Source: Frigoribacterium sp. ACAM 257 (GTDB lineage Bacteria; Actinomycetota; Actinomycetes; Actinomycetales; Microbacteriaceae). Taken from it: DNA of 64,000 nucleotides. Location: the NCBI RefSeq assembly GCF_007954365.1, contig NZ_VOLO01000008.1, positions 1 to 64,000 on the forward strand. The letters run 5' to 3'. Made by a program: the position numbers and the translations under genes. Below are positions 2,625 to 24,987 of this stretch, piece after piece. The first letter of the stretch is position 1, and every line of letters begins with the position of its first letter. The notes under the pieces were generated by a model. The model worked only from the letters and a program-made list of their open reading frames with translations, was not told the origin of the DNA and did not search any database.

Positions 2625-3099
2625 CTCCAACGGTCCTTGTGATCGGTCTCTAGAGCCTCGTGGTGGAGGCGCGCTCGGCGCCGTCGAGTGGCGCCGCAGT
2701 TGGGCCACTGGAAGGACAAGTAAAGAATTACGGTGCCGGCTGAAGCTCCAGTGGGGCGCCCAACAAGTGTCGTTCTCGAGCATAATTCCCCGGCCGGGGA
2801 AAAAGCAAGTTGTCTCTCCTGGGCGCTTACCGCGGACCCAGCTTTCGCGGCGATTGATCTTCTACAAGCACCTCGAGTCGCACGCGAGAAGGCGCAATTG
2901 ATGTCGACGCGAATTGGCGAACCGATTGCTGAAAGCATCCGTATGCACTGGGGTTCCTGAGCCCCTCGAGCCGCGGGCGCGGGCAATTTCATCCTGGTGG
3001 CGTCATGAAAACGGGGTCCATGCGCCCTCTGGTGGCGACGGATTCAGATGCCGGCCCATCTGCCCCCTTCTGGCCGAAAGGCATTCGCTTCCTTTCGGC
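2625..3099. other. Long intergenic region between divergent units
   Basis: About 630 bp separate the minus-strand membrane-protein pair (start 2624) from the GH2 gene (start 3254). I see no convincing gene here. It holds palindrome site A (2786-2801) and, towards its right end, the GH2 promoter with site B. Confidence 0.6.
2779..2808. promoter_or_regulatory. Operator site A (TTCCC-N6-GGGAA) with promoter-like hexamers
   Basis: The 16-bp perfect palindrome TTCCCCGGCCGGGGAA lies at 2786-2801. On the minus strand it sits between TTGCTT (2808-2803) and TATGCT (2784-2779) with an 18-bp spacer, which would drive the small membrane protein and GlsB. On the plus strand CATAAT (2781-2786) overlaps its left edge, as the -10 elements do at sites B-E, but no -35 is visible. 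The direction is therefore uncertain. Confidence 0.65.
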
Positions 3100-3152
3100 T
3101 TGACCCGCAATCCTCCGACTTGTACGCTTTTTCCCGGACCGGGAAAAAGCGT
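3100..3152 (+). promoter_or_regulatory. Promoter and operator site B for the GH2-GH3-SDR operon
   Basis: TTGACC (3100-3105), a 17-bp spacer and TACGCT (3123-3128) form a sigma-70-type promoter. A perfect 29-bp inverted repeat, centred on A3138, spans 3124-3152 and overlaps the -10 box and start point. Its core is TTTTTCCCGG-A-CCGGGAAAAA. The same outer half-sites occur at 2786, 10702, 10848 and 24942. The position implies repression. The start codon is 102 bp downstream. Confidence 0.8.
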
Positions 3153-3253
3153 GGAGCGAGCCATCGGGCCGGTTGCGGCAGGTTCGCTCGTTCCGCCCTG
3201 GTCAGCACGTGGGCCATGTGCCGTCGAGTTTTACCAACGAGTAAGGAAGCTCA

Positions 3254-5653
3254 GTGGAACGCACATCATTTAACGACGGATGGGCGATCCGCCCTTCGAC
3301 CAGTCCCTTTCTCGAAATTCTTGGGCAGGCCGAGACGCCGAAACCCGTGACACTTCCACACGACGCTCTCCTCGGGCGTCCGCGTTCTGCTGAAAACCAG
3401 CCTGGCGCTCTGACGGGTTATTACGGCGACGGTGTTGTCGAGTACGTCAAGACGATCACAGTCCCTCATCAGTGGCAGAACCGCCGAGTCGAGCTACAGT
3501 TCGACGGTGTTTACCGCGGCGCGATGGTGTTCGTCAATGACGCCCTTGTCGGTCAACGACCGTACGGTTACATCCCTTTCTCGGTTCGCATTGACGACCA
3601 CCTTGTGGAGGGTGCGAACGAAATTCGTGTCGAATGCCGGAGCCATTCAGACGCTCGTTGGTACACGGGACTCGGGATCTACCGTGACGTATGGATGCTG
3701 CTTGGCGAACAGGTGCACATTGCCCGCAACGGGGTGCGCACGCGCACCCTCAGTGCCGACAGCGAAGTCGCCGTCGTTGCCATCGACACCACTCTCGAGA
3801 GTGACGACCGAGTACTTCGCACCGCGCTCGTGACCACGGAGATTGTCGATGCTTCAGGCCAAGTAGTGGCCGTCGATACCGCCACTTTCGCAGTGCGTCC
3901 TCGCGACACCTCGACGCTACGACAGCGCTTCACGATCGCCAGTCCGCAGCTGTGGAGTGCCGAGACGCCTCATCTGCACACGTGCCGCACAACCGTGAAA
4001 ATTGGAGAAGAGGTCGTCGAGGTGCACGAGGAACGCTTGGGCATCCGGGCGCTCGAGTGGGACGCGCGACGAGGGCTGCGTATCAACGGCAGCCCAGTCA
4101 AGCTTCGAGGTGGATGCGTGCACCACGACAATGGCGTCATCGGTGCAGCCACAATTGCGCGGGCCGAAGAACGTCGGGTCGAGTTGCTCAAGGCAGCCGG
4201 GTACAACGCCATCCGCTCTGCGCACAACCCGATCAGCGAGGCACTCCTCGACGCTTGCGACCGACTCGGTCTCATGGTCATGGACGAATTCACCGACGGC
4301 TGGACATCTACGACCGCCGGCTTTGGTTATGGTCACGATCTCGCCGATTGGTGGCGACGTGACCTTCCAGAGATGTTGGCCCGCGACTACAACCACCCCA
4401 GCGTGATCATGTACTCCATCGGCAACGAGGTTGCAGACACAGGAAACGACTGGGGAGCGACTCTCGGTCGCGACATGGTCGACCTCGTTAAGTCTATTGA
4501 CGACTCGCGCCCCATCACTAACGGTGTGAACCCGATGATGACGTCCCTTCATGATCTGAAAGCCGAGATGGGCCGCGAGGGAGGCGTGAACTCGCTCATG
4601 CGTGACCTCGGCGATCTCCTTGGGAATGTAGTGACCTCCGACATGGCGACGGACCGCCTCGAAGACGCTATGTCGCAACTCGACATCGCTGGTTACAACT
4701 ACGCCTCAGCCCGGTATGAACTTGACATCAAGCGACACTCTCAGCGCCTTCTTCTCGGAACCGAGGGGACGCCGAACAAGCTGCACGAGATCTGGCCCCT
4801 CGTCGAGCAATTCCCACAGATCATCGGCGACTTCGCTTGGACGGCGTGGGAGTACATCGGGGAGGCCGGTCTCGGCGCTGACAAGCCCGCAAGTGAGCCG
4901 TTCTTCGGGAACTACCCATGGCGCTTGTCCATGACCGGAGACATCGGCATCACCGGTCAACGGCGCACCATCTCGTACTGGCGCGAAATCGTTTGGGGCC
5001 TGCGCACAACCCCCCATCTGGCAGTGCACCGTCCGGAGGTATCGCGGGCCGATCTGCAGCCCTCGCTCTACACCTGGAGCGACAGCACGGAAAGCTGGAC
5101 GTGGCCCGGCTTCGAAAATCAGGTGATGACGGTAGAGGTCTACTCGGACGCACTCGAAGTCGAATTGCTCCTCAACGGACAGACTGTGGGGCGTGCCCCG
5201 GCTGGTCGAGACAACCGTTGGATGGCTACTTTCGAGGTCCCATATGAGCGGGGCGAGCTGACAGCTGTAGCCATCCGCGGCGGGGCACGCGCGGAGACTG
5301 ACTCGCTCCGCACTGCGCAACCGGACAGTGGACTCAGCCTGGTTACAGACCGCGACGTCATTCGGGCTGACGACACCGACCTTGCGTACGTGGACATCAC
5401 CATTGCCGACAGCGACAACATCGTGCATGTCCTGAGAGACGACGTGGTGACCGTCCGTGTAGAGGGAAGCGGAACCCTGCAGGGGCTGGGTAGCGCTGCG
5501 CCGGCGTCTGAGGACGACTACACCTCGGCCACCACGCGCCTCTACCTCGGTCGTGCGCTAGCCGTCGTTCGCCCGACGGGACCTGGTCAGATCCGAGTGA
5601 TCGCCGAGTCCTCTTCCGGCCTCAGGGCGGAAACCGCACTTCGCGCTGAGTAA
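3254..5653 (+). CDS. Glycoside hydrolase family 2 (beta-galactosidase/glucuronidase type), paralogue 1
   Basis: A 799-residue protein with the GH2 domain order: N-terminal sugar-binding jelly roll (about 1-165), immunoglobulin-like domain (about 170-270), TIM barrel (about 275-570) and C-terminal beta domains. The acid/base is Glu392 in SIGNEV and the nucleophile Glu504 in GTEGTPN; NHPSV precedes the acid/base. There is no signal peptide, so it acts on imported glycosides in the cytoplasm. The GTG start has AAGGAAG 4-5 nt upstream. It is first of three genes (GH2, GH3, SDR) behind operator B. The sugar released (galactose, glucuronate, arabinose or other) cannot be decided from motifs. A diverged paralogue lies at 13485. 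Confidence 0.92.
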   Translation: MERTSFNDGWAIRPSTSPFLEILGQAETPKPVTLPHDALLGRPRSAENQPGALTGYYGDGVVEYVKTITVPHQWQNRRVELQFDGVYRGAMVFVNDALVGQRPYGYIPFSVRIDDHLVEGANEIRVECRSHSDARWYTGLGIYRDVWMLLGEQVHIARNGVRTRTLSADSEVAVVAIDTTLESDDRVLRTALVTTEIVDASGQVVAVDTATFAVRPRDTSTLRQRFTIASPQLWSAETPHLHTCRTTVKIGEEVVEVHEERLGIRALEWDARRGLRINGSPVKLRGGCVHHDNGVIGAATIARAEERRVELLKAAGYNAIRSAHNPISEALLDACDRLGLMVMDEFTDGWTSTTAGFGYGHDLADWWRRDLPEMLARDYNHPSVIMYSIGNEVADTGNDWGATLGRDMVDLVKSIDDSRPITNGVNPMMTSLHDLKAEMGREGGVNSLMRDLGDLLGNVVTSDMATDRLEDAMSQLDIAGYNYASARYELDIKRHSQRLLLGTEGTPNKLHEIWPLVEQFPQIIGDFAWTAWEYIGEAGLGADKPASEPFFGNYPWRLSMTGDIGITGQRRTISYWREIVWGLRTTPHLAVHRPEVSRADLQPSLYTWSDSTESWTWPGFENQVMTVEVYSDALEVELLLNGQTVGRAPAGRDNRWMATFEVPYERGELTAVAIRGGARAETDSLRTAQPDSGLSLVTDRDVIRADDTDLAYVDITIADSDNIVHVLRDDVVTVRVEGSGTLQGLGSAAPASEDDYTSATTRLYLGRALAVVRPTGPGQIRVIAESSSGLRAETALRAE

Positions 5654-5706
5654 TCCACTTCCCTGCCCGAACCCCCGGGTGCCCACCAGCTACTAAGGAG
5701 TTCTCC

Positions 5707-7953
5707 TTGACTACATCCACTGAACAAACCGCCTTCGAGACCGCGGCCGCTCGCGTGCGCGAGGGCAACGACCTGGCCGTCGAGACCGACGGCCTTCTGG
5801 CGCAACTTACCGACGACGAGAAGCTCTGGCTGTTAGACGGCGACGCCGACTTCTGGGTGGGAATCGCCGAGATGAGCATCGGCTACAACTTGCACCCCAT
5901 CGTCATGGGAGAGATCAAGCGTCTCGGCATTCCTGGTCTCCGCTTCAGTGACGGCCCGCGCGGCGTCGTCATGGGCGCTTCCACGGCGTTCCCGGTGTCC
6001 ATGGCCCGGGGAGCCACGTGGGACCCAGACCTGGAAGAACAAGTCGGCCTCGCCATAGGCCGTGAGATGCGGGCACAAGACGCGAACTTCTTCGGGGGGG
6101 TGTGCATCAATCTGCCTCGCCACCCGGCATGGGGACGAGCGCAGGAGACCTACAGCGAGGACCCCTATCTGCTGGGTGAATTTGGAGCAGCACTTGTGCG
6201 GGGCGTCCGGCGCAACGCAATGGCGGTAGCCAAGCACTACGCGCTGAACTCGATGGAGAACGCCCGGTTCAAAGTGGACGTACAGGCCGACGACGCGACG
6301 CTTCACGAGGTCTTCCTCCCGCACTTCCGTCGCGTAGTCGAGGAGGGAGTTGACGGCATCATGACGTCTTACAACTCCGTCAACGGTGAATGGGCCGGTC
6401 AGAATGAGGTACTCCTCGAAGGCATCCTTCGAGACCTATGGGGATTCGAAGGCGTCACTGTCTCTGACTTCGTCTCGGGGCTAAGGGATGCTGGAGTGTC
6501 GGTACGCGCCGGACTCGACGTCGAGGCACCAATGCGCCAGCAGCGTGCCGCGCACCTGCCCGGCGATCTCGAGTCGGGCAAGGTTGGTTGGGAGCACATT
6601 GACCGTGCGGCTCGACGCATCCTTCGCACGCAACTAGCGCACTACGCTGCTGACCGGGAAGACAAGCCATCCGGAGACGTCGTGTTCTCAGCAGATCATC
6701 GAGCCCTGGCGCGAACGGTGGCCGCTACGTCCATGGTTCTTGTCAAGAACGACAGGGTCGATGATCGACCCGTCTTGCCGATCTCACCGGCCAACACCGC
6801 CTCCGTCGCTCTCATCGGTCGCCTCGCGGCTCTCCCGAACACGGGCGATCACGGTTCCTCGGCGGTCCGATCGCCCGAGGTCGCAACGGCCCTGGACGGA
6901 ATTCGCGAAGCGTTCCCGAATAGCGCTCTGCGAACCGCGCTTGACGACGACCCAGTAGCCGCTGCCGAGGCCGCGCGGGAAGCCGATGTCGCGGTCGTCG
7001 TCGTCGGCTACACCGCCGACGATGAGGGCGAGTACGTCGGCGGGGACATGATGCTTGATCCCGCTGTTCTCGCATTGTTCCCGCCCCTGCCTGAGGGGGT
7101 CGATCCTTCGTCCATGGGCGGCGACCCGGCTCAGGAGGACACAGACGCGGCTGCTGGTGGCATCGACGCTGACCCTGAGGGCGGTACCGCTTCCCCGATG
7201 ACGGGCGCCGCCGGTGCAATGGGTTCCGTCGTGGGTGGGGACCGTGCGAGCCTCAGGCTGCGTCCCATTGACGTGGACATCATTCGAGCGACGGCAGCTG
7301 CGAACCCCCGCACAGTCGTCGTCATTGTCACAGCTGGCGCCGTCATCACGGAGGAGTGGCGAGACGATGTTCCCGCAGTCCTTATCGGCTGGTACAGCGG
7401 CGTTGAAGGGGGCCACGCACTGACCGACGTTCTCACCGGTCAGGTCGATGCATCTGGACGTCTGCCGTATTCCGTTCCGACGAGCGAGTCTCACTTGCCC
7501 TACTTCGATCGAGACGCGACCAGCATCGTCTACGACCGTTGGTTCGGTCAGCGCCTACTTGACCGCGATGGAGTCGAAGCTGCCTTCCCCCTGGGCTACG
7601 GGCTCTCGTACACGACGTTCATGATCTCCGACCTCGTGATCACCACAGCCGCAGGGGACGCCTTCTCTGCTACGGCCCGCGTGACCAACACCGGGTCCAG
7701 GGCAGGGCGACACGTGGTCCAGCTCTACGGAGTCACACAAGCCGCCGACTTCCCGCAGCGGGTGATCCTCGGCTTTGCGACCGTCCTTCTCGAGCCTGGC
7801 GAGAGCGCGAAGGTCGACGTGGCGGGATCACTTCGACCCCTCCAGCGCTGGACTGACGACGGATTCATCTGGGCCGCACCGACCGCGGTCATCGAAGCGT
7901 CGTCATATTCAGGCGACCCTGACTCCGTTACGGCGTCCCTTCGACTGCCCTAG
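5707..7953 (+). CDS. Glycoside hydrolase family 3 beta-glycosidase, cytoplasmic
   Basis: A 748-residue GH3 enzyme with N-terminal TIM barrel, alpha/beta sandwich and C-terminal fibronectin III-like domain (from about residue 640). The nucleophile is Asp254 in VTVSDF; the upstream AKHYALNSMEN matches the substrate-site KH. The TTG start is supported by AAGGAG 6 nt upstream. There is no secretion signal. An unusual acidic, Gly/Ala/Met-rich stretch at about residues 455-515 sits inside the sandwich domain near the place where GH3 proteins carry variable loops. It follows the GH2 gene by 53 bp, so the two should act on the same imported glycoside. Confidence 0.92.
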   Translation: MTTSTEQTAFETAAARVREGNDLAVETDGLLAQLTDDEKLWLLDGDADFWVGIAEMSIGYNLHPIVMGEIKRLGIPGLRFSDGPRGVVMGASTAFPVSMARGATWDPDLEEQVGLAIGREMRAQDANFFGGVCINLPRHPAWGRAQETYSEDPYLLGEFGAALVRGVRRNAMAVAKHYALNSMENARFKVDVQADDATLHEVFLPHFRRVVEEGVDGIMTSYNSVNGEWAGQNEVLLEGILRDLWGFEGVTVSDFVSGLRDAGVSVRAGLDVEAPMRQQRAAHLPGDLESGKVGWEHIDRAARRILRTQLAHYAADREDKPSGDVVFSADHRALARTVAATSMVLVKNDRVDDRPVLPISPANTASVALIGRLAALPNTGDHGSSAVRSPEVATALDGIREAFPNSALRTALDDDPVAAAEAAREADVAVVVVGYTADDEGEYVGGDMMLDPAVLALFPPLPEGVDPSSMGGDPAQEDTDAAAGGIDADPEGGTASPMTGAAGAMGSVVGGDRASLRLRPIDVDIIRATAAANPRTVVVIVTAGAVITEEWRDDVPAVLIGWYSGVEGGHALTDVLTGQVDASGRLPYSVPTSESHLPYFDRDATSIVYDRWFGQRLLDRDGVEAAFPLGYGLSYTTFMISDLVITTAAGDAFSATARVTNTGSRAGRHVVQLYGVTQAADFPQRVILGFATVLLEPGESAKVDVAGSLRPLQRWTDDGFIWAAPTAVIEASSYSGDPDSVTASLRLP

Positions 7954-7970
7954 TTCTCACCGTGCCCGTC

Positions 7971-8007
7971 AGGCGACGTGTCTTGATCTCCTCGAGGCAC
8001 GTCGCCT
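7971..8007 (+). terminator. Intercistronic hairpin between GH3 and SDR
   Basis: AGGCGACGTG (7971-7980) pairs perfectly with CACGTCGCCT (7998-8007), loop 17 nt, followed by TT. It may end part of the transcription before the SDR gene, or stabilise the upstream mRNA. Confidence 0.5.
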
Positions 8008-8090
8008 TTCGAGGTTCACCCTCAAGTCCCCCTCTGGTCGTGGTCCCGTCCGCGGCCAGGCGAACATCACCTCCTAACGAAAGAGCGACT

Positions 8091-9080
8091 ATGACCCTCA
8101 CCTCGAAAAACACTCTGCAGGAATGGCTCGACGATGCCGTCGGCGGGCCGATCTTCCGCCGTTTCCTCGCTGAGGCCGGGCAGTCGGAGGAAGCGCTCTA
8201 CCCGGCACGCCAGCTCACGCTCCGAGCGATGATCGACCTCGGCGGAAATTCCTTTCCCCAGGAACTGGTCGACACACTCGTCAAGCAGGCAAATGGGGGC
8301 GTGATTCCTCCCGAAGAGTTGCAGGACTCAGCGGAGTCGTCGGGGCGCTTCTCAGGACAGACGCTCGTCGTGACCGGTGCCGGCTCCGGTATCGGGCGCG
8401 CGACGGCCCGACGAATCATCCGCGAAGGAGGGCGAGTGATCGCTGTGGATGTCGTACCGGGCGGCATTGCAGCTCTCGAAGCGGACTCTCCGGACGAACT
8501 GATCGTGACCGTGACCGCCGACATCACCTCACCGGACGGCATCAGCGCCATCATGGATGCCGCAGGAGCGAACATCGACGGTTTGGCCAACGTCGCCGGA
8601 GTCATGGACGGAATGACGCCCTTGCACGAGACAGACGATGGCCTCTGGCGGCGGGTCTTCTCCGTGAACGTTGACGGCACCTTTGCGCTCAGCCGCGCCG
8701 TACTGCCAGTGATGCTTTCGGCTGGCCGCGGGGCGATAGTCAATGTAGCGTCCGAAGCCTCCCTGCGTGGCAACGCAGCAGGGACCGCCTACACTGCCTC
8801 CAAGCATGCGGTGGTCGGCATCACGAAGAGTTCAGCGTTCCTGTATGGTCCGTCAGGAATTCGCGTTAACGCCGTCGCGCCTGGTCCAACTGCCACCGCA
8901 ATCGAGGGAACATTGGCGAGCGACTTCGCCCGCGAACGCCTCAGCCCGTTCTCTGGTCTCACGCCACCAGTGGCTGGCGCAGAGCAGATAGCAGCATCCA
9001 TCACCTGGTTGCTCAGCGAGGACTCCGCCAACGTCAACGGAGTCATCCTCGCCTCGGACGGAGGATGGTCCGTTCAGTAG
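8091..9080 (+). CDS. Short-chain dehydrogenase/reductase with an N-terminal extension
   Basis: A 329-residue protein. The classical SDR domain begins near residue 88: TGAGSGIG cofactor motif at 95-102, an Asp after beta-2 (VIAVDVVPGG) favouring NAD(H), and catalytic Tyr234/Lys238 in YTASK. The first 75 or so residues are an added domain with the pattern EWLDDAVGGPIFRRFL. From memory similar stretches occur at the C-terminus of some actinobacterial GH3 enzymes, which I cannot verify here. The ATG at 8091 has GAAAGAG upstream; longer starts lack a site. It is last in the GH2-GH3-SDR unit and probably oxidises a hydroxyl of the freed aglycone or sugar. Confidence 0.88.
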   Translation: MTLTSKNTLQEWLDDAVGGPIFRRFLAEAGQSEEALYPARQLTLRAMIDLGGNSFPQELVDTLVKQANGGVIPPEELQDSAESSGRFSGQTLVVTGAGSGIGRATARRIIREGGRVIAVDVVPGGIAALEADSPDELIVTVTADITSPDGISAIMDAAGANIDGLANVAGVMDGMTPLHETDDGLWRRVFSVNVDGTFALSRAVLPVMLSAGRGAIVNVASEASLRGNAAGTAYTASKHAVVGITKSSAFLYGPSGIRVNAVAPGPTATAIEGTLASDFARERLSPFSGLTPPVAGAEQIAASITWLLSEDSANVNGVILASDGGWSVQ

Positions 9081-9235: not shown

Positions 9236-10654
9236 TCACCGCGCTCGTCGGATGCGCGTGATCGCGAGGCCCGCGGCGAGAACGAGCACGAAACCCACGG
9301 GCCAAACGGGACCGTAGTTTCCGGCGGCAAGGGTGACTGCAATTCCCGCCACGATCGGGCCAAGAGCATTGCCCAAGTTCTGCCCGAGCGACGACAATCC
9401 GAGGTCGCGGCCAGCGGCCTCCTTGTCAGGGAGGACCTCAATGAAGAGAGCTTGGTCGACGACCACAAACATGCCGTAGCCGATGCCAGTGATGGCTACC
9501 TGGATGAACATCGAAGCAAGAGTGGGGAAGAAGAACGGGATGAGGAAGCTACCCGCCATGATGAAACCCGCCGCCATGACGAAGGGCTTACGGCGCTTGA
9601 CCTTGTCGCTCCAGCGCCCGCTGAAGTACATGGCGAGCAGGGTCGTCGGGAGGGCCGCGAACTGCAGGAGCGGCGCCGTCTGCGCGGCCTCGCTCACCGA
9701 CAAAGCGGGCCTGATGTAGCTCTGAAGCATGTACAGCGAGTACGTCGAGCTGATTCCATAACCCAGGTAGAGCAGTACCTTCGAGATCCAAGCCCAACGG
9801 TAGTCACGATCTGTCAGAGCCACTCCATAGGACTTGAGCACCAACCCGAAGCGAAGTCGCTTGGTCACCATGTCCCGTGAGGAGTTATCGCGAGCGAACA
9901 GGACGAAGGCCATCGTCAGGAGGAACAGAACGATTGCGATCGGTATGTAGGTTCCCAGGCCGATTGCATTGAACAACGCTCCCGCCGCGACGGCTCCAAC
10001 GATCGCGCCGAAGTAGGAGGACAGGCCGGCCATGGCCGACAGGCCGCCAATTCGCTCCTCCGGAACGCGGTCGGCCACTGTGGCAGCGAGGGGCCCCTGG
10101 ATGAGTCCCATGCACACCTGAATGAGCGACCAGACGACCACGAGGACCGCTACGGACGGCACGACGGGAAGTAGGCAGATGAGGGCTGTACCGGCGATGC
10201 TGCCAGCGGCGATCCACGGCGCCCTGCGACCGAACCTCGATCGAGTCCGATCGGACAGCATTCCGAGGAGCGGAGAGAACAGCATGGCTAGAACTACGCC
10301 GGCAGATGTCACTATCGACAGGCTCGTTGCGCGTGACGCGTTGAACGTCGACAGCAGCTCGAGCTGACGAGTCTGGTCGGGTGTCGCCGTCGCGGCTCCG
10401 GAGGCAACCTCGGTTTGCAGGGTAGTGAGCGCCTGCAAATCAACCCCCGAGTCGGGGCCGAAGACGCGCGCAAATTCGAGACCCTGGACGTGCAGCGGGA
10501 TGATGATGGCCAGCAACGACCCCCAGAGCAACGCCACGCCGAGGTTTGCCAGGGCGTAGAAAGTCGTGTAGCGACGCATGGCCGGGGTTTTAAACTCGTA
10601 AACCACTGCGTTGGAGACCGTCTTCGGGGCGGTCTCGGATGAGATGTCGGCCAT
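9236..10654 (-). CDS. MFS transporter, glycoside/cation symporter (GPH) type
   Basis: A 472-residue integral membrane protein with about 12 hydrophobic segments. The loop GMLSDRTRSRFGRRAPW (about residues 134-150) is the signature between helices 2 and 3 of MFS/GPH sugar symporters. The second half has the repeat SGRWSDKVKRRKP. An unusual soluble insert (about residues 65-105, with FGPDSGVDLQAL) sits between helices 1 and 2. It is transcribed away from the second glycosidase module, with operator C overlapping its promoter 48 bp upstream of the ATG. The likely role is uptake of the glycoside that the cytoplasmic GH2/GH3 enzymes cleave. Confidence 0.9.
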   Translation of the reverse strand: MADISSETAPKTVSNAVVYEFKTPAMRRYTTFYALANLGVALLWGSLLAIIIPLHVQGLEFARVFGPDSGVDLQALTTLQTEVASGAATATPDQTRQLELLSTFNASRATSLSIVTSAGVVLAMLFSPLLGMLSDRTRSRFGRRAPWIAAGSIAGTALICLLPVVPSVAVLVVVWSLIQVCMGLIQGPLAATVADRVPEERIGGLSAMAGLSSYFGAIVGAVAAGALFNAIGLGTYIPIAIVLFLLTMAFVLFARDNSSRDMVTKRLRFGLVLKSYGVALTDRDYRWAWISKVLLYLGYGISSTYSLYMLQSYIRPALSVSEAAQTAPLLQFAALPTTLLAMYFSGRWSDKVKRRKPFVMAAGFIMAGSFLIPFFFPTLASMFIQVAITGIGYGMFVVVDQALFIEVLPDKEAAGRDLGLSSLGQNLGNALGPIVAGIAVTLAAGNYGPVWPVGFVLVLAAGLAITRIRRAR

Positions 10655-10701
10655 GGCGCTTCTTCCTTGAAGGGGGCTGGTGTATCGACGACCGGAGTTA
10701 A

Positions 10702-10746
10702 TTCCCGGGCGGGGGAAAAGTACGCCCGAACGGTTGCATTAGTCAA
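10702..10746 (-). promoter_or_regulatory. Promoter and operator site C for the MFS importer
   Basis: On the minus strand TTGACT (10746-10741), an 18-bp spacer and TACTTT (10722-10717) form the promoter. TTCCC (10702-10706) and GGGAA (10713-10717), 6 bp apart, form the palindrome next to the -10 box. The sequence is nearly identical to site E (TTAATTCCCG at the left edge of both). Confidence 0.78.
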
Positions 10747-10821: not shown

Positions 10822-10872
10822 TTGACGAGAGCGGCCAAACCCTCTAGCGTTTTCCCCACCTCGGGAAAAACG
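10822..10872 (+). promoter_or_regulatory. Promoter and operator site D for the GH3-GH2-TetR operon
   Basis: TTGACG (10822-10827), 17 bp, TAGCGT (10845-10850), then the inverted repeat CGTTTTCCC-N6-GGGAAAAACG (10848-10872, half-sites spaced as at A, C and E) overlaps the -10 box. The GTG start of the GH3 gene is about 114 bp downstream. This operator and site C face each other across the divergent promoter region. Confidence 0.8.
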
Positions 10873-10985
10873 AGTGCCGACGTCGGCGGTCCGACGTGGG
10901 CTGAGAACGACGAACGGTGACCGCGGCAGGCGTGCGTCCAACGGTCTTTGGCGTGACGGCAGCTGCGGCTCGAAGAGGAGAACCG

Positions 10986-13400
10986 GTGAGTAACGAACCG
11001 ACAGAAGTGGCGACGTCGAGGTCGACGGCGCAGATCGTGCAGGGCCTGCTGGAGAGCATGACGCTCGAGCAGAAGGTGGCGCAGCTGCAGTGCACCATCC
11101 TGGTTGCAGGACATCAGGAAGCGGCTCTGGCGAAATTCCCAAATGGGGTAGGTGCCCTCGGCAGCATCAGTTCCGGGGGCGACGTGGCCGCCGACGCGAA
11201 GTTCTACACCGAGCTGCAGGCGGACGTGAGTTCCCGTACGGGCGTCGGAATTCCTCCGCTGATGCACGGGGAGGCGGTCTCAGGATGGACTGGCCCTGGA
11301 GGCACGGTGTTCCCATCGGCCATCGGTCTCGGTGCGACCTGGAATCCAAGCGCAGTTGAGCGGATGACTGAGATCGTCCGTGACCAGATGATGGCCGTGG
11401 GCGTGCGTCAGGCACTGTCGCCCGTCATGGACGTCGCTCGCGACCCCCGGTGGGGCCGAGTTGGTGAGACGTACGGGGAAGACCCCACCTTGTGCGCGGC
11501 CATGAGCGTCGCGTTCGTGCGTGGTCTTCAGGGTCCGGATCTCCGGAACGGCGTCGCCGCAACGGGAAAGCACTTCCTTGGATTTGGTTTCTCCGAGGGG
11601 GGGCTGAACATGACCTCGAATCCCATCTCGCCACGTGAACTCCGCGAGGTATACGCGAAGCCCTTCCAGGCCGCGATCACCGAAGCAGGCCTGGCGGCGA
11701 TCATGAACTCGTACGGCACGATCGACGGTGAACTGCTCCTTACCTCCAAGCACATCCTGACGGACCTTCTTCGGGAGGAGATGGAATTCGGGGGAGTGGT
11801 TGTCTCCGACTACATGTCCATCAATCTCGCGGTCGACCTCAACGTCGTTGAGGACGCAGTTGCCGGCGGCATCGCCGCCCTCGTCGCCGGACTCGATGTC
11901 GAACTGCCCACGCCATTCGGGTTCGGCGACGGGCTCGTCAAGGCAGTTCGTGACGGGTCACTCGATCAGGCCGTCCTCGATCGGGCGGTGACGCGCTGGC
12001 TCACCACCAAGGTCGAGCTGGGCTTGTTCGAGCGGGAAGGAGCACGAACTGAGCTGCTCGAAACGGCATACGAGCCCGAGATGGCTCTCGGGCACAGCCT
12101 CACCGTTGCTCGTGAGGCGACCGTGCTACTGAAGAACGACGGCATTCTGCCTCTCTCGAAAGAGGCCACGAAGATCGCCGTCGTTGGCCCTCACGGGGAC
12201 TCCATCCGGTTGTTCTTCGGTTGCTACACGGGCCCCGCATCCATCGACCTCGCCATGAGCGGCACGATGTCCGAGATGGCAGGCATGCTCGACCTTCCCG
12301 AACTGATGGAGAACTACGACCTGCCTCCGCTTGCTCCGTTCTTTGAGGGCAGCGACGTTCGATCGGAACCCGAGGCCGTTGAGTCCGCTCTGCGCGGCAT
12401 CTACGGGCACAAGACGCCCACGATCGTCTCGGCTATCCGAGCAGCCAGCCCGAACGCCGACGTCGTCTACGAGAAGGGCTGCGACATCGCGGGCACCGAT
12501 CGCAGCCGGTTCGACGCCGCCATTGCCGCAGCAGCTGAGGCAGATGTCGTCGTCCTCGCCCTGGGCGGAAAGTACGGCTGGGGAAGCGGCAGCACATCGG
12601 GCGAAGGAATCGACACCGCCCACGTGGGGCTGCCGGGCATCCAAGAGGAATTCGCGGCGCGCATTGCCGAGACGGGCACCCCCACCGTGTTGGTGCACAT
12701 GGACAGCAAGCCGCTGGGAAGTGCCGCCGTCGCTGATCTCTTCCCCGCTGTGATCGAGTACTGGTTCCCGGGCGAGACTGGTGGTCAGGCACTCGCTGAG
12801 GTTCTCTTCGGCGACTACAACCCCGCCGGCCGCCTCCCCATGACAGCTGTGCGACATGCAGGGCAGATTCCCATCTATGCCGCCCACCGTCGCAGCAACA
12901 GTGTCAGCAGCGCCGGGACCATGATCATGAACCGGTACGTCGACGACACGAAAGAACCGCTTTTCCCCTTCGGCGCAGGACAGAGTTACACGACGTTCGA
13001 GTACTCGAACCTGTCCGTCTCGCCGAGCGTCCACGCGGACGGCAACGTTCAGGTCTCCGTCGACGTCTCGAACACCGGCTCGCGGGACGGCGACGAGGTC
13101 GTTCAGGTCTACGTCAAGGATGACTACGCCAGCATGGTCCGCCCCGTACAGGAGCTTGCTGGCTTCCGACGGGTCGCCATTCCCGCCGGGGCGACAAAGA
13201 CGATCCATTTCGAGATCCGGGCGAACCAGTTCGCGTTCCTGGACGTTGACATGCGGTGGCTCGTTGAGGAGGGAACCATGACTGTTTTCGTGGGATCCTC
13301 CTCCGCGGACATCAAGCAGACCGGCTCGTTCCGTATCGAGAACACCGCTGTAGTCCACGGCGCCCGTCGCGGCTTCTTCGCTACCAGCACCGTCGAATAG
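10986..13400 (+). CDS. Glycoside hydrolase family 3 beta-glycosidase, second copy
   Basis: An 804-residue GH3 enzyme. The GTG start at 10986 is chosen because AGAGGAG lies 5 nt upstream; a longer frame from 10917 has no ribosome site. The nucleophile is Asp275 in VVVSDYMS, with GKHFLGFGFSEGG in the substrate loop. The C-terminal fibronectin III-like domain contains VSNTGSRDGDEVVQVYVKD. No signal peptide. It resembles family members active on beta-glucosides or beta-xylosides (WGRVGETYGEDP motif); specificity is not decidable. It differs clearly from the GH3 at 5707, so the two probably remove different sugars. First gene of the unit behind operator D. Confidence 0.93.
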   Translation: MSNEPTEVATSRSTAQIVQGLLESMTLEQKVAQLQCTILVAGHQEAALAKFPNGVGALGSISSGGDVAADAKFYTELQADVSSRTGVGIPPLMHGEAVSGWTGPGGTVFPSAIGLGATWNPSAVERMTEIVRDQMMAVGVRQALSPVMDVARDPRWGRVGETYGEDPTLCAAMSVAFVRGLQGPDLRNGVAATGKHFLGFGFSEGGLNMTSNPISPRELREVYAKPFQAAITEAGLAAIMNSYGTIDGELLLTSKHILTDLLREEMEFGGVVVSDYMSINLAVDLNVVEDAVAGGIAALVAGLDVELPTPFGFGDGLVKAVRDGSLDQAVLDRAVTRWLTTKVELGLFEREGARTELLETAYEPEMALGHSLTVAREATVLLKNDGILPLSKEATKIAVVGPHGDSIRLFFGCYTGPASIDLAMSGTMSEMAGMLDLPELMENYDLPPLAPFFEGSDVRSEPEAVESALRGIYGHKTPTIVSAIRAASPNADVVYEKGCDIAGTDRSRFDAAIAAAAEADVVVLALGGKYGWGSGSTSGEGIDTAHVGLPGIQEEFAARIAETGTPTVLVHMDSKPLGSAAVADLFPAVIEYWFPGETGGQALAEVLFGDYNPAGRLPMTAVRHAGQIPIYAAHRRSNSVSSAGTMIMNRYVDDTKEPLFPFGAGQSYTTFEYSNLSVSPSVHADGNVQVSVDVSNTGSRDGDEVVQVYVKDDYASMVRPVQELAGFRRVAIPAGATKTIHFEIRANQFAFLDVDMRWLVEEGTMTVFVGSSSADIKQTGSFRIENTAVVHGARRGFFATSTVE

Positions 13401-13409: not shown

Positions 13410-13444
13410 GTGCGCCCGTCGCTCGCTCGGAGCGACGGGCGCAC
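13410..13444 (+). terminator. Strong hairpin between GH3 and GH2
   Basis: A perfect 15-bp stem pairs 13410-13424 with 13430-13444 (GTGCGCCCGTCGCTC arm) around a 5-nt loop, 10 nt after the GH3 stop. It either attenuates or processes the GH3-GH2 transcript. Confidence 0.6.
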
Positions 13445-13484
13445 CCCTTCTCACAATGAGCACCACCAACACGAGGACAACGAC

Positions 13485-15902
13485 TTGACCGCCCTGCCTT
13501 TCAACACGGAATGGATCTGCGGGTCTCCCAGCGGGATGTTTGGGGGTCTCGGCAACGGCGCAGACGAAGCAGTCGCAGTGCACCTGCCCCATGACGCGCT
13601 CCGAGACGCTACCCGGGACCCGAACGCCCCGGGCAAGGGGGCGGGTGCCTACTTCCCCAACGCGGCGTACTCCTACGCAAAGACTTTCCACGCCCCCGAC
13701 TCCTGGTCAGGAAAGGTGGTTCGCCTCGAAGTGCAAGGCGCTTACCGCCGAGCCCAGGTGTTTCTCAATGATGAGCTTGCAGGGACACGGGCAGATGGCT
13801 ATGCCCGATTCTTCGTTGACCTCACCCCCTACCTGAAGTTCGACGCGGCGAACACGATTCGCATCGAGGTCCGGTCCGGTCAGGACTCCCGTTGGTACAG
13901 CGGGGCCGGTCTGCACCGCCCCGTAGTCCTGCATGTCGACAACGCAATCCACATAGCCCCTGACGGAGTGACGATTCGAACGGTTCGGATCGAACCGGAC
14001 CAAGCCGTGATCGATGTCGACACTGCCCTCACCAATGCCGGGCTCGTCACAGGGCAACTGAGCGTTGACACGATCATGCTGTCTCCTCAGGGCGACATCG
14101 TCGAGAAAGACGAGACTCCCGTCACGCTCGCGCCAGGTGAGAGCACTCTCATTCGTCAGCGGTTCTATGTCCAAGATCCCGCCCTGTGGGGTCCCGACTC
14201 TCCTCATCTCTACACGGCACGGACGCAGTTGTCGGGCCAAGGCGACGAGGTGCTCACCACCTTCGGAATTCGCGACATCACGGTTGATCCTCGGAAGGGG
14301 CTGCGCATCAATGGGGAGCCGGTCCTCCTGCGCGGTGCCTGCATTCACTCGGACAACGGGCCCCTTGGCGCCGCAGCCATTGGCCGAGCTGACGAACGGC
14401 GCATCGAGCTGCTGAAGTCCGCCGGCTTCAACGCCATTCGAGCTGCTCATAACCCGGCATCACCAGCACTTCTGGACGCCTGTGACCGTCTGGGGATGTT
14501 GGTCATGGATGAGGCCTTCGACGTTTGGACGAGGTTTAAGACGACCGACGACTACGCCTTTGATTTTCCGCAATGGTGGGCGATGGACCTCGAATCCATG
14601 ATCGCGAAGGACCGGAACCACCCCAGCGTGATCATGTACTCGATCGGTAACGAAATCGCCGAGGTCGGAACACCCCACGGTGCACGCTGGGCTCGTCGCA
14701 TGGCCGAACACGTCCGCGCCTTAGACCCATCACGTCCCGTCACGAACGGGGTCAACCCCTTCCTTGCTGTGATGGATGAACTTCCAGCGATCCTCGAGGC
14801 TGCTGGCGGCCTAAACGAGGCGATGTCTGTCGAGGGCGGATTCGATTTTGTCGGCACCGGAGAAACTGCGACAAGACGCACCGCGGAATCCAGTGCGGCC
14901 CTGGACGTTCTCGGATTGAACTATTCCGAAGCCCGATACGCAGTAGACCGCGATCTCTTCCCCCACCGAGTCATCGTGGGGTCCGAAACGTTCCCCGGGG
15001 CCATCGGCAAGAACTGGGAAGCCGTGCAACGGAATCCGAACGTCATCGGCGACTTCACGTGGACAGGTTGGGACTACCTAGGTGAGGTGGGATTGGGTGC
15101 GCTTGCCTATGAGGGTGAAGGCGGAAGCGGCGGGCTAGAACGTGAGTTCCCGTTCCTCACGGCTTGGTGCGGGGACATCGACATCACGGGTTGGCGCCGG
15201 CCTCTGTCGTTCTACCGAGAGATAGTTTTCGGCATGCGCGCAGAGCCCTATATCGCTGTCCGACGTCCGGAACGGCACGGTGTTCCTATCGCCTCACAGT
15301 CGACCTGGGCATGGAGCGACTCAGTTTCGTCGTGGACGTGGCCGGCAAGCGAGGGGGACCCCGTCACTGTGGAGGTCTACGCCGACGCCGATGAGGTCAT
15401 CCTCATGCTCGATGAAGCGGAGATTGGTCGAGCCGAGGTGGGTACCGAGCGGCCGTTCATGGCTGTTCTCCAAACGGCGTACCGCCCCGGACGTCTCACT
15501 GCTGTCGCTCTTCGCGACGGCAAGGAATGCGGACAGACCACGCTCAACACGGCACCCGGCCGGGCACGACTCACCGCCGTGTCCGACAGTGCATCGCTCA
15601 TCGCGGACGACCAGTCACTCGCGTTCGTAGCTATCGAGTTTCGCGCCGAAGACGACACATTGGTCACTTCAGAAGAGCACCCTGTGACGGTGACCGTCGA
15701 TGGCGACGCAGTTGTTCTTGCGGGCCTGTGCAGCGCCAACCCGAAGACTACCGAACGCTTCGACGCTGACGTATGGAACACGTTCGACGGCCGCGCACTC
15801 GCCGTCCTCCGTCCGACCCGGGCCGGCGTCGCGACCGTCTCGATCTCCTCGCCCGGAGAAGACACGGTCACGATCGAGGTGACGGTCCAGGACGCCGGGT
15901 GA
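13485..15902 (+). CDS. Glycoside hydrolase family 2, paralogue 2
   Basis: An 805-residue GH2 protein with the same domain order as the enzyme at 3254. The acid/base is Glu390 in SIGNEI and the nucleophile Glu501 in GSETFPG. The TTG start is preceded by GAGGA at 7 nt. Shared blocks with the paralogue, such as DACDRLG and NHPSVIMYSIGNE, show common descent, but the loop after VMDE differs (AFDVW here, FTDGW there), which suggests different substrates. A 10-codon frame, ATG 13456 to TGA 13488, ends over the TTG start and could couple translation. Cytoplasmic, no signal peptide. Confidence 0.91.
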   Translation: MTALPFNTEWICGSPSGMFGGLGNGADEAVAVHLPHDALRDATRDPNAPGKGAGAYFPNAAYSYAKTFHAPDSWSGKVVRLEVQGAYRRAQVFLNDELAGTRADGYARFFVDLTPYLKFDAANTIRIEVRSGQDSRWYSGAGLHRPVVLHVDNAIHIAPDGVTIRTVRIEPDQAVIDVDTALTNAGLVTGQLSVDTIMLSPQGDIVEKDETPVTLAPGESTLIRQRFYVQDPALWGPDSPHLYTARTQLSGQGDEVLTTFGIRDITVDPRKGLRINGEPVLLRGACIHSDNGPLGAAAIGRADERRIELLKSAGFNAIRAAHNPASPALLDACDRLGMLVMDEAFDVWTRFKTTDDYAFDFPQWWAMDLESMIAKDRNHPSVIMYSIGNEIAEVGTPHGARWARRMAEHVRALDPSRPVTNGVNPFLAVMDELPAILEAAGGLNEAMSVEGGFDFVGTGETATRRTAESSAALDVLGLNYSEARYAVDRDLFPHRVIVGSETFPGAIGKNWEAVQRNPNVIGDFTWTGWDYLGEVGLGALAYEGEGGSGGLEREFPFLTAWCGDIDITGWRRPLSFYREIVFGMRAEPYIAVRRPERHGVPIASQSTWAWSDSVSSWTWPASEGDPVTVEVYADADEVILMLDEAEIGRAEVGTERPFMAVLQTAYRPGRLTAVALRDGKECGQTTLNTAPGRARLTAVSDSASLIADDQSLAFVAIEFRAEDDTLVTSEEHPVTVTVDGDAVVLAGLCSANPKTTERFDADVWNTFDGRALAVLRPTRAGVATVSISSPGEDTVTIEVTVQDAG

Positions 15903-15996: not shown

Positions 15997-16674
15997 GTGG
16001 CAAGTGACGCTGTAACGAGCCGACGTGGACGACCGAGGCGGGTCAGCCGCGAACAGATCATTCAGGCTGCGAAGGCGCTTGATCCATCGACGTTGACGAT
16101 GCAGGCACTAGCAGACGAGATCGGGGTGGATCGAAAGACCCTTCATTACCATGTAGACAGCCGGGCTACGCTCCTGCAGCTTGTCGCGGCGGACACGTTC
16201 CGAGATGCGATGCGGACTCACGACTTCGTCGACTTTGACGACTGGCAAACCGCCGTGCGCTCGTTCGCGCACATCACCCGTGACGCTGTGAATGCAGCAG
16301 GTGCGTGGGCTGGATACGTCGCCATCGACTCCGAAGATGATCTTGAATCAGTCCGGCCTGCGGAGATCGCTGTCGAGAGGCTCGTAGAAGCGGGTTTGCC
16401 TGTGGCAGATGCTGGTCGAGCCATCGCCATGATCGCCGTCCTTGCTTTCTCTTCTGCGCGCGACCAGCTCGTGTCAGCCGACCATCGGCACCCGCAGGAG
16501 CAAGTTCTGAAGGACGCGATCGATCGGATGCCCAGCGACCGGTTCGGTCTGATCCGTCGCCTCCTGGGCGCGGGGGGGCCGTCTCTGGGTAGTGACGAGC
16601 AGTTCGACTTCGAACTGCGGCTCATCGAAACTGGGATCACCTACCTTCTAGAACAAACAGCTCCCATCGCCTAG
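15997..16674 (+). CDS. TetR family regulator, candidate repressor of the glycosidase regulon
   Basis: A 225-residue TetR protein. The basic start SRRGRPRRVSREQIIQAA leads into the helix-turn-helix TMQALADEIGVDRKTLHYHV (about residues 34-53), then a helical ligand domain. GTG start with AAGGGAAG upstream. It is last in the GH3-GH2-TetR unit behind operator D, so it would be autoregulated if it binds the TTCCC-N5/6-GGGAA sites. That is inference from position. It is convergent with the next TetR gene, and the two stop codons share the CTAG at 16671-16674. Confidence 0.85.
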   Translation: MASDAVTSRRGRPRRVSREQIIQAAKALDPSTLTMQALADEIGVDRKTLHYHVDSRATLLQLVAADTFRDAMRTHDFVDFDDWQTAVRSFAHITRDAVNAAGAWAGYVAIDSEDDLESVRPAEIAVERLVEAGLPVADAGRAIAMIAVLAFSSARDQLVSADHRHPQEQVLKDAIDRMPSDRFGLIRRLLGAGGPSLGSDEQFDFELRLIETGITYLLEQTAPIA

Positions 16675-17261
16675 CTGACCGTCTGCTCACCAGGCACGAT
16701 CAACCGGGCCAGGCGAGCGCAATCGCTGTCGGTCGCAGGCCCAGAATGCGACTGCTCCCACATGACAATGCCGAAGAAGGCAAGCTGAGTCGCGGGGTCC
16801 ACGTCCTCTTGGTCCAAGAGGCCTGCATCCGCCGCCCGCTGCAAGACGGTCCGAAAAGGTGTCGAGGCACGGAGCACGATGGCGGCGACCAGCTCATGAA
16901 GCTCTTCCGACGCTGCGCGGGTGGCTGCGGTCAAGGCTCGTCCCTCAGGCGTGTCTGAGCTTGAGCGAATTTGACGCATCAACAACTCAAGGTCGTGTTG
17001 TGTGGACCCCGTGTCGGGGGCGGCGTCGTACCGGTCCATAAGGGGCTGGACAACGGCACCGAGGAGTGCGCTGCGGGTCGGCCAACGCCTATAGACGGTC
17101 GTGCGGTTCACTCCCGCTTCGCGGGCCACGGCTTCCATCGAGAAGTCAGCGAAGCCGACGCGACCAAGTTCACTCACCGTCGCCCTAAGCACACGCTCAA
17201 CGACCTCAGTGCTCCGGGGTCCCTGCTGCACCCCCCGAGTTCTTCGCTTATCTCCGTCCAC
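16671..17261 (-). CDS. TetR/AcrR family regulator, divergent from an SDR gene
   Basis: A 196-residue TetR protein. Helix-turn-helix at about residues 38-60 (FSMEAVAREAGVNRTTVYRRWPTRSAL), typical AcrR type, followed by a C-terminal domain of the TetR_C type. It is transcribed away from the SDR gene at 17348. The 86-bp gap between them contains two strong palindromes, the usual layout for a TetR protein controlling itself and its neighbour. The effector is unknown but is likely a substrate or product of that dehydrogenase. Confidence 0.88.
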   Translation of the reverse strand: MDGDKRRTRGVQQGPRSTEVVERVLRATVSELGRVGFADFSMEAVAREAGVNRTTVYRRWPTRSALLGAVVQPLMDRYDAAPDTGSTQHDLELLMRQIRSSSDTPEGRALTAATRAASEELHELVAAIVLRASTPFRTVLQRAADAGLLDQEDVDPATQLAFFGIVMWEQSHSGPATDSDCARLARLIVPGEQTVS

Positions 17262-17285: not shown

Positions 17286-17306
17286 ATGGCAACATGGCGT
17301 TGCCAT
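17286..17306. promoter_or_regulatory. TetR operator candidate 1 (divergent region)
   Basis: ATGGCAAC (17286-17293), 5 bp, GTTGCCAT (17299-17306): a perfect inverted repeat 24 bp upstream of the TetR start codon. Likely target of the TetR protein at 16671-17261. Confidence 0.65.
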
Positions 17307-17331: not shown

Positions 17332-17347
17332 CTCCTAGGAGGAAAAG

Positions 17348-19412: not shown

Positions 19413-19444
19413 CGCCATCAGCAGGTTGGCCGCAGTTCGCATCT

Positions 19445-19891: not shown

Positions 19892-19929
19892 CCAGACACC
19901 GTAGAACTCAGGGGACACCCAGGGCAAAT

Positions 19930-19948
19930 GGTTAGATCGAGGCTAACC
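19930..19948. promoter_or_regulatory. Probable MarR operator
   Basis: GGTTAG (19930-19935), 7 bp, CTAACC (19943-19948): a perfect inverted repeat 39 bp upstream of the MarR start codon, in the region shared with the divergent monooxygenase gene. Size and position suit a MarR dimer site. Confidence 0.6.
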
Positions 19949-20065
19949 TATTCGTAAGCACTGATAGCCGACCCGCAGTCGTATCGGCGCGGTGGAGCAC
20001 ATGCCGACGCCCCTGTTCAAGGACGTTCTCACCTCGCCGGTTCGCGTGACGAGAGTGAGACACCC

Positions 20066-22887: not shown

Positions 22888-23363
22888 CCGAGCGTCCTCG
22901 GCCGGACGCCATGGCGCGTCGTCGCTCGAATGGCACTGGACGAATTGGCTTGGCTCAGAGGCTAGATGGCAACCGCCCGCACACCAACCTTTGTGACAGG
23001 ACAACACGGCTGGAAGTCGCGAGCGCGAGTCCCTGAGCGGAATTACTGCTGCAGGGTCTCGCGCTTTCGCGTGCCTAGACCATGGGACCTTGGTTAGTGC
23101 CGCTTCGCGCTCAGCAGCGGGTTCGCTGTCGAAGTGCTGGCGGTGCATGCCGCCCCAACTGCGAGTAAGTCTTGGCGCGACGATGGCCCGCGCGGGTGCG
23201 GTTTGGAAAGTCAGAACGGCCATGGTGCCCTAGTGCGATCGCGCAAGGATGCCCCCGCTGGTTCGAGAGCGATTCAATCCAGGCGGGGACTGCCGCCTGG
23301 CGCACTATCGGGGTCAATGTCTGGGCGTGGTTGGACCTGCCGAGCTGACGTCTCTGCCGCTAA
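22888..23363. other. Intergenic region, no recognisable gene
   Basis: About 475 bp between the lipoprotein gene and the convergent MFS gene. Frames on both strands have no family resemblance or ribosome sites. The only clear structure is the hairpin at 23022-23065. It could be decayed gene material. Confidence 0.5.
23022..23065. terminator. Long hairpin between convergent units
   Basis: AGCGCGAGTCCCTG (23022-23035) pairs with CAGGGTCTCGCGCT (23052-23065) with one mismatch and a 16-nt loop. It probably terminates the monooxygenase-lactonase transcript and possibly the opposing one. Confidence 0.55.
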
Positions 23364-24837
23364 TTACTCCTTCGACGAGTCGGGTGCTCGCCCGACGAAG
23401 AAGGACAGCAGGATAGGTAGCAGTGAGATGAAGGCGCCCCACACGAAGGCGGTGTGAACGCCTCCTGCTCGTGCCGCGATCTCGGTGGATCCGGCGGCAA
23501 GTGCCGAGGCAGTCCCGGTAGTCATGAGGGTAATGAATAGCGCCGTGCCGGCGGCGCCTGCAACCTGCTGAAGGGTGTTCACGATTGCGGACCCGTGCGA
23601 GTAGAGGTTCTTCGGCAGGGAACCGAGGGCGGACGTGAGCAGGGGAGTCAGCATGAAGCCGAGCCCAATGCTCAGCGCCACATGGATCGCGATGACCAGG
23701 ACGACACTGCTCTGCTCGTCCACCGTGGTCAGTCCCCACAGGGAGGCGCTGAGCAAGATCGAGCCGGGAATGACCAGCGGCCGCGGTCCGAAACGATCGA
23801 AGATGCGTCCGACGATGGGAGCTGTGACTCCCATCGCCACGCCTCCCGGAAGCAGAGCGAGCCCCGTCTCCAACGTGTTCATGCCGAGGACGTTCTGCAG
23901 GTAAAGGGGAAGGAGAATGAGCGAGCCGAAGAGTGTCGCCATGCTCACAATGACCAAAAGAGTAGAGATTGTGAACGCACGGTTGCGGAAGGGACGAAGG
24001 TCCATCAGGGCGCGATCCTGGTTCTGCAAAGACACGGAGCGGAACACGAATGCCCCGAGCGCGAGGGCGCCGACCAGTATGGGGATGAGGGGCGGAATGT
24101 GAGTACCTCCGCCAGCCGCTTCGCCCATGCTGCTGAGCCCGTAGATCAGACCGCCGAAACCGACGGCGGCGAAAAGCACGGACAAGATATCGAAACGGGT
24201 TCTACGGGTCTCCGCGACGTCGGTGATGAGGCGCGAACCGATCACGAGGGCGACGAGAGCGATCGGCAGAACGACGAGGAACAGCCAGCGCCAGGACAGG
24301 GCGTTGAGGATCAAGCCCGAGATTGTGGGGCCGACGGCCGGAGCCACTGCAATGACAATCGAGATCAAGCCCATCATTCGACCCCGACGTGAAGCGGGGG
24401 ACGAAGGTGAGGACTGTCGTCATGAGCAGAGGAAGCATCAGGGCGGTACCGCTGGCTTGGACAACACGACCGGCAAGCAGAACCTCGAACCCTGGGGCGG
24501 CGGCGGCCAGGGCGGTACCAAGCGTGAAGAGCGTCATCGCCGCGATGAACACCGATCTTGTCCCGAACCGTTGCAGGACCTGCCCGGTTGTCGGAATTAT
24601 GATCGCCATCGTCAACAGATAGGCCGTCGTAAGCCACTGGGCCGTGGCGGCGCTGATATCAAGATCTCGCATGAGACTCGGCAATGCCACGCCCATGATC
24701 GTCTCGTTGAGAATCACGACGAATGCCGAGGCGAGCAGGAGGCCGATGATCAACTTGGCCCTGGCTGAGAGCGGCTTCTCGTCGTCGGCCGTGGCGGTGG
24801 CGGAATTACCAGAAGTATCATTTTCGGCGCTCAGCAT
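23364..24837 (-). pseudogene. DHA2-type MFS drug/metabolite exporter, frameshifted
   Basis: Two overlapping minus-strand frames make one transporter of about 490 residues, the normal DHA2 length with 14 membrane helices. The first half (24837 down to about 24400) contains NETIMGVALPSLMRDLDI and QWLTTAYLL. The second half (about 24395 to 23364) continues from MMGLISIVIAVAPAVGPTISG. Reading shifts at the GGGGG run 24396-24400: removing one base restores FVPASRRGRMMGL, the expected motif-C context. This is a real mutation, a reversible slip or a sequencing error. Operator E lies upstream, so it belongs to the island regulon. Likely role: export of an aglycone or toxic intermediate. Confidence 0.85.
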
Positions 24838-24941
24838 GAATGTCCTTTCGCGGTGGCTTTAGACAGCGACGGGACACCGGCCGGGGCTTCGGGCAGAACG
24901 GCCAATGATGGATTCGAGCCCCATACTGAGCTGTTGGTTAA

Positions 24942-24987
24942 TTCCCGAGCCGGGGAAAAGTCTAGAAAGGTTGTTGAAAGCCGTCAA
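24942..24987 (-). promoter_or_regulatory. Promoter and operator site E for the DHA2 exporter
   Basis: On the minus strand TTGACG (24987-24982), 17 bp, TAGACT (24964-24959), then TTCCC (24942-24946) and GGGAA (24953-24957) with a 6-bp core form the palindrome directly after the -10. It has the same geometry as sites B-D. The ATG is about 105 bp downstream. Confidence 0.8.

Follow-up and report, generated by a model that had tools for sequence, protein, structure and literature searches.

A putative local TetR-family regulon with TTTTCCC/GGGAAAA operators in a glycosidase gene island of Frigoribacterium

The window analyzed here, a 64,000-nucleotide stretch of Frigoribacterium sp. ACAM 257 (positions 1 to 64,000 of contig NZ_VOLO01000008.1), carries glycosidase, transporter and regulatory genes together with five copies of a palindrome, designated A to E by position. 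On the forward strand, B is followed by genes for a GH2 glycosidase (3254..5653), the GH3 glycosidase gh3b (5707..7953) and an SDR oxidoreductase (7962..9080), and D by the GH3 glycosidase gh3a (10917..13400, the longest ORF, whose real start may be later), a second GH2 glycosidase (13410..15902) and TetR1 (15997..16674), the proposed repressor. On the reverse strand, a transporter gene matching MFS_1 and also the MFS_2 sugar-transport model (9236..10654) lies behind C, and we infer that its product works in import under the control of that site. The first ORF downstream of A, also on the reverse strand, encodes a small hydrophobic protein of 49 amino acids (2475..2624, predicted start) that has no Pfam match; a transglycosylase-associated small protein (PF04226, E 1.2e-8; 2153..2416, reverse strand) is probably co-transcribed from A. 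Downstream of E, a DHA2-type MFS exporter gene (23364..24837, reverse strand) falls into two reading frames (23364-24377 and 24202-24837), so the target of E may be non-functional; the split may reflect either gene decay or a sequencing error. An earlier note on this DNA had listed the GH2-GH3-SDR operon, the GH3-GH2-TetR operon, the MFS importer and the DHA2 exporter as the controlled genes; the split in the exporter gene is a correction to that list.

The GC content of positions 1-27000 is 62.2%, against 71.4% for positions 28001-64000, and the cluster therefore looks acquired; the low-GC stretch is probably an island that ends just before the DapA-like, RNase J-like and FtsK genes. It also contains a second regulator gene adjoining that of TetR1, TetR2 (16671..17261, reverse strand), divergent from an SDR gene at 17348; the palindrome at this locus, TGGCAAC-N5-GTTGCCA (17287-17305), is unlike the five sites. 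Positions 20066-22887 encode a monooxygenase resembling the terpenoid enzyme PtlE and then a gluconolactonase-like protein, with an SDR gene upstream. The monooxygenase scored 719 bits on the neopentalenolactone D synthase model, under its cut-off of 1100, and together the three proteins could form a ring-opening route for a cyclic aglycone.

Searching the window with the pattern TTCCC-N5/6-GGGAA returned five places (2786-2801, 3131-3145, 10702-10717, 10852-10867 and 24942-24957), exactly those of the earlier note, where dinucleotide shuffles predict 0.10 and the maximum among 100 shuffles was 1. The candidate operators, called from sequence only, are A, TTTTCCCCGGCCGGGGAATT (2784..2803), C, TTTTCCCCCGCCCGGGAATT (10700..10719), and E, TTTTCCCCGGCTCGGGAATT (24940..24959), each in minus-strand reading, and B, TTTTCCCGGACCGGGAAAA (3129..3147), and D, TTTTCCCCACCTCGGGAAAA (10850..10869), on the forward strand. 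No weaker operators beyond these five were found in positions 1-28000 when up to 3 mismatches in 14 positions and spacers of 4 to 8 bp were allowed. Genome-wide (3,332,072 bases on 14 contigs), the same pattern occupies eight distinct places, five of them inside the window; by eye, the flanks of the other three resemble long stem-loops (L001, L002) or a tRNA-like stretch (L003). The longer form, TTTTCCC-N5/6-GGGAA, is confined within the window genome to the five island sites and is absent from all 15 congeneric genomes. Random scatter of the motif through the genome, which would have counted against a regulon, was thus not observed, and this exclusivity rules out a dispersed genome-wide regulon for this genome.

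Constant promoter geometry had been claimed for four of the five sites, and it is present at each: a TTGAC-type -35 element and a TANNNT -10 element stand 17 or 18 bp apart, with the -10 touching or overlapping TTTTCCC. At B, TTGACC (3100-3105) and TACGCT (3123-3128) are separated by 17 bp on the forward strand and the -10 abuts the operator. The -10 elements of the other three abut or overlap TTTTCCC: at C, TTGACT (10741-10746) and TACTTT (10717-10722), 18 bp, reverse strand; at D, TTGACG (10822-10827) and TAGCGT (10845-10850), 17 bp, forward strand; and at E, TTGACG (24982-24987) and TAGACT (24959-24964), 17 bp, reverse strand. Site A, which lay outside the geometry described in the earlier note, has a second register, in which the operator takes up the 18 bp between the -35 and -10 of a promoter on the minus strand (TTGCTT, 2803-2808; TATGCT, 2779-2784).

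The regulator encoded within this set of genes, TetR1, has the N-terminal helix-turn-helix and all-helical ligand domain of the TetR family by both profile and structural model. Its positions 12-217 match a TetR chain in the profile search (E 1e-19), the Pfam domain TetR_C_1 scores 25.6 bits (cut-off 21), and the all-helical predicted model (pLDDT 81.7) matches TetR(D) in Foldseek (E 1.2e-6); TetR_N (PF00440) gave no match at E 0.001, yet that region aligns with TetR chains in the profile search. The closest solved-structure and fold matches are tetracycline-repressor class proteins. By the curated score, TetR1 is not itself a tetracycline repressor: it reaches 38.5 bits on the NCBIfam equivalog NF010319, whose cut-off is 265. 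Palindromic operators overlapping the target promoters, a further family trait, are likewise seen here at the level of sequence.

Scanning for TetR1 identified three named loci, each with a protein 58% identical: in Arthrobacter sp. 135MFCol5.1 (G404, locus L032), Pseudarthrobacter sp. fls2-241-R2A-127 (G405, L033) and Arthrobacter bambusae DS999 (G406, L034). These Arthrobacter-type clusters match both GH3 types of the window, GH2, MFS, the SDRs, Gfo/Idh, TetR1 and TetR2 at 45-87% identity, in a gene order that differs from that of the window, and the G404 cluster additionally has xylose isomerase, xylulokinase and L-ribulose-5-phosphate 4-epimerase genes (all above curated cut-offs). By our own tally, TTTTCCC-N4-6-GGGAA falls in the cluster regions at 7 of 8 distinct places in G404 (contig 8, 30-73 kb), 7 of 7 in G405 (contig 1, 31-62 kb) and 8 of 10 in G406 (contig 15, in two groups, one per end); the reversed-pattern control gave 0, 2 and 1, respectively. 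The shorter TTTCCC-N4-8-GGGAAA is less confined, with 2 of 5 places outside the clusters in G404, 1 of 4 in G405, 3 of 6 in G406 and 2 of 4 in a further genome, G543, and none at all anywhere in G206. Other features of these loci deserve mention. GGCAAC-N5-GTTGCC, as in the window's tetR2/SDR gap, stands at 7836-7854 of L032 and is probably TetR2's own operator in a second local regulon; next to tetR2, L033 and L034 also encode a relative of the lactonase-like protein; and contig 15 of G406 (97,996 bases; L076, L078) has the cluster MFS near one end and, at the other, the GH3 that follows the MFS in G404, positions that give it a circular look and make a plasmid possible.

Among 398 genomes of the window's own family, TetR1 homologues at E <= 1e-20 were found in eight, the window genome counted in; those of G277 and G138, which belong to another genus, are 60-61% identical, and the other five 33-40%. 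The G277 and G138 loci are compact, running GH2 (plus Gfo/Idh in G277), GH3a, two operators, MFS, an imperfect operator, tetR1, GH3b and GH2, so that two operators lie between MFS and GH3a, as they do in the window. Both operators are kept in this gap in all three genomes, and the surrounding sequence has diverged. An imperfect motif copy lies directly upstream of tetR1 in G404, G405, G406, G277 and G138. The motif accompanies orthologous genes in these five genomes; its absence there would have counted against the proposal of the earlier note. An earlier run with TTTTCCC-N5/6-GGGAAAA matched 5 of the 398 family genomes. TTTTCC-N6-8-GGAAAA matched nothing in eight homologue genomes, because it covers neither the wider cores of G277 and G138 nor the GTTT arms of G543, and was replaced by an N4-8 pattern. 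TTTTCCC-N4-8-GGGAAAA matched nine of the 398 family genomes, six of which have one site each. The remaining three, with two sites each, are the window genome, G277 and G138; two or more perfect sites are thus present in 3 of 3 genomes with a TetR1 at least 60% identical and in 0 of the 395 others (Fisher p about 1e-7), which upholds the proposed co-occurrence of motif and regulator.

More widely, TetR1 orthologues are scarce: they occur in 2 of the 345 Arthrobacter-family genomes searched at E <= 1e-20, G404 among them, and in 4 of 396 in an order-level search at E <= 1e-25, where the four include the window genome and what is apparently the G543 record. Plasmids were considered as a carrier of the module and rejected, since none with the module was found: among 72,556 plasmid records TetR1 had a single match, at 32%, and all 566 records matching GH3a were below 60%.

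Both promoter registers recur in the operators of these relatives. We tested 18 sites (five in the window, eight in G404, one each in G405 and G406, and three in G277), with the remaining copies in G405, G406 and G138 left out. TTG-N16-18-TANNNT was present in one of the two fixed registers, on a single strand each time, at 17 of them, against backgrounds of 0.0009 and 0.0012 per oriented position at 120,000 random positions, a comparison that was not blind because the rule was written after the sites had been viewed. The single miss is the imperfect G277 site upstream of tetR, which has no in-register promoter. By eye, the gene facing away from tetR in G543 has TTGACG-17-TAGCGT running into TTCCCC, in the first register. 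The promoter of G404 operator s1 (L071, contig 8, 28815-28833), which adjoins tetR1, is on the strand facing away from tetR1, a direction in which we identified no target gene.

We also compared the start of the TetR recognition helix with the sequence upstream of each tetR gene. A TTTCCC/GGGAAA palindrome with up to two mismatches lay within 400 bp upstream of tetR in 7 of 7 loci with a DRK helix start (L032, L082, L083, L084, L080, L087 and L109) and in 0 of 4 without it (L085, L086, L088 and L017); chance would place one upstream of a given locus in 0.7-12% of cases. Copies of L032 (L033, L034), the weak matches L018-L031 and the window gene were left out of this 11-locus test. The L109 motif was sought as a prediction, whereas the DRK rule came to light later, and the seven loci include some close relatives. 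A related palindrome likewise precedes tetR in homologues with DRK that are 32-40% identical to TetR1. The window TetR1 has the DRK helix, yet no such palindrome lies within 400 bp upstream of its gene, which is third behind D, its nearest site. Two distant homologues are preceded by two tandem palindromes 20 bp apart (L080, 1396-1431; L109, 2215-2250), an arrangement that suggests two dimers side by side.

Could another regulator, or none, account for the five sites? TetR2 is the neighbor of TetR1, and the three Arthrobacter-type clusters have retained it together with the SDR divergent from it (53.7-53.8% and 86.5%). The tetR2/SDR gap, however, has its own conserved palindrome (TGGCAAC-N5-GTTGCCA in the window, AGGCAAC-N5-GTTGCCT in L032 and L034) and no TTTTCCC site, and the stretches compared around the G277 cluster (58.5 kb) and the G138 cluster (42.9 kb), both of which have TTTTCCC operators, contain no tetR2 match (blastp E <= 1e-15). 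We rejected TetR2 as the five-site regulator on these grounds and regard its binding there as very improbable. It is likewise improbable, if somewhat less so, that TetR1 is only a passenger in the cluster and the sites are bound by a LacI, AraC or other regulator encoded elsewhere. LacI regulators are common in catabolic clusters; that of G404 has one next to its L-ribulose-5-phosphate epimerase gene, and the window itself encodes an AraC-type protein at 912-1994. Nevertheless, no LacI was found among the 20 scanned ORFs of window positions 303-26839 or the five ORFs flanking the G277 cluster, and within this set a LacI regulator gains no support. Neither the AraC-type protein nor the TetR-like ORF at 303 has a match in the G404 region (E <= 1e-8), in the G277 and G138 regions or in five stretches of G405 and G406 (E <= 1e-15 for the latter two genomes), and presence of the motif tracks the recognition-helix type of the TetR. 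Of the four regulators compared, TetR1 alone was matched in all five other loci; TetR2 was matched in three, and the AraC-type protein and ORF 303 in none.

That the sites are chance palindromes or terminator-like stem-loops with no regulatory role is the least credible account, and we give it almost no weight. The stem-loop or tRNA resemblance of the three matches elsewhere in the genome speaks for it; against it are the far-above-chance count, the exclusive clustering, the fixed promoter register and the conservation over rearranged loci.

We therefore favor, at a probability of roughly 0.86, the reading in which a single local TetR-family repressor, TetR1, uses all five sites as operators and is itself encoded third in one of its own target operons. 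The earlier note's choice of the TetR at 15997 as regulator gains support from comparison, with orthologues accompanied by the same operators in rearranged GH2/GH3/MFS clusters of five genomes. Sites, promoter register and TetR1 are co-inherited across genera. Without inducer, a TetR1 dimer on TTTTCCC-N5/6-GGGAAAA would block RNA polymerase: at B, C, D and E the operator sits just downstream of the -10 and would cover the start point, and at A it would act from between the -35 and -10. The inducer, probably a polycyclic compound, may be a glycoside from plants or the corresponding aglycone, and its binding would release TetR1. Import (MFS), deglycosylation (two GH2 and two GH3 enzymes) and oxidation (SDR) would then be induced together, as would export (DHA2, broken here) and the small membrane pair, and additional TetR1 from the D operon would reset the switch to off. 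The enzymes probably act on a plant glycoside, and the combination of GH2/GH3 with the SDR and the neighboring monooxygenase and gluconolactonase-like protein suggests a cyclic terpenoid or steroid aglycone.

The most unusual feature of these candidate operators is their variable spacer. Across 19 operators (identical copies and the imperfect G277, G138, G206, G072 and G952 sites left out), spacers of 4, 5, 6, 7 and 8 bp occur: 5-6 bp in the window, 4-6 bp in the Arthrobacter group, 7-8 bp in G277 and 4 bp in G543. Each of the five positions of TTCCC is held in 37 or 38 of the 38 half-sites, a constancy that is partly by construction because such patterns had found the sites. Even orthologous operators differ, with 6 bp in the window against 7 bp in G277 for GH3a and 6 against 8 bp for MFS, and the recognition-helix stretch DRKTLHYHV is identical despite these changes. 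If TetR1-type proteins do bind the sites, they depart from the fixed half-site spacing that is typical of the TetR family, though not strictly defining, and a range of 4 to 8 bp is more than a rigid TetR dimer would be expected to accommodate. TetR1 might be the founder of a TetR subfamily in which the dimer recognizes two rigid TTTTCCC half-sites across such a spacer and DRK is a code for CCC/GGG, a tentative proposal that we rate below even odds. Its DNA-binding heads could be unusually mobile, for example held in the T-tracts by the N-terminal RGRPRR arm, or each half-site could be bound semi-independently. Such flexible spacing, if true, would challenge the rule of a single exact half-site distance for TetR dimers, and the DRK correlation offers a first candidate specificity code for the TetR1 subfamily. 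More broadly, the proposed regulator-operator pair would serve a glycoside catabolic module common to distant actinobacteria; its searchable motif could reveal further members, and its inducer would reveal a natural compound.

Nothing in the open-access literature, among the matches listed, contradicted the earlier note's statement that no motif of the form TTTTCCC-N5/6-GGGAAAA has been described, and within that scope the sequence comparisons support a new local TetR regulon whose operator has no counterpart. In the tetracycline system, the tetO operator overlaps its promoter and TetR autoregulates. TetR classes B, D and H resemble TetR1 in the helix-turn-helix with TetR_C_1, the promoter-overlapping operator and, as proposed for TetR1, autoregulation. 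They differ in operator and in targets: tetO is built on CTAT with 5 bp between its halves (PMC2723105), as against TTTTCCC with 4-8 bp and glycosidases as the predicted targets of TetR1. AmtR of Corynebacterium glutamicum is alike in that one TetR-type protein serves several palindromic boxes; its box is CTAT-N6-ATAG and the spacing was found to be essential, whereas the TTTTCCC spacing is variable (PMC2723105). By gene content, and not by sequence comparison, the nearest described systems are the GH2/GH3/GH78 loci for potato glycoalkaloid deglycosylation in Arthrobacter sp. S41 and Glutamicibacter halophytocola S2 (PMC9597252, PMC10653915). The main text of PMC9597252 makes no mention of TetR, LacI, a regulator or an operator. 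These loci have GH78, which is not found among the 20 scanned ORFs of the window; they share with the window GH2 and GH3 genes in Arthrobacter-type bacteria, and their substrate is a plant steroid glycoside.
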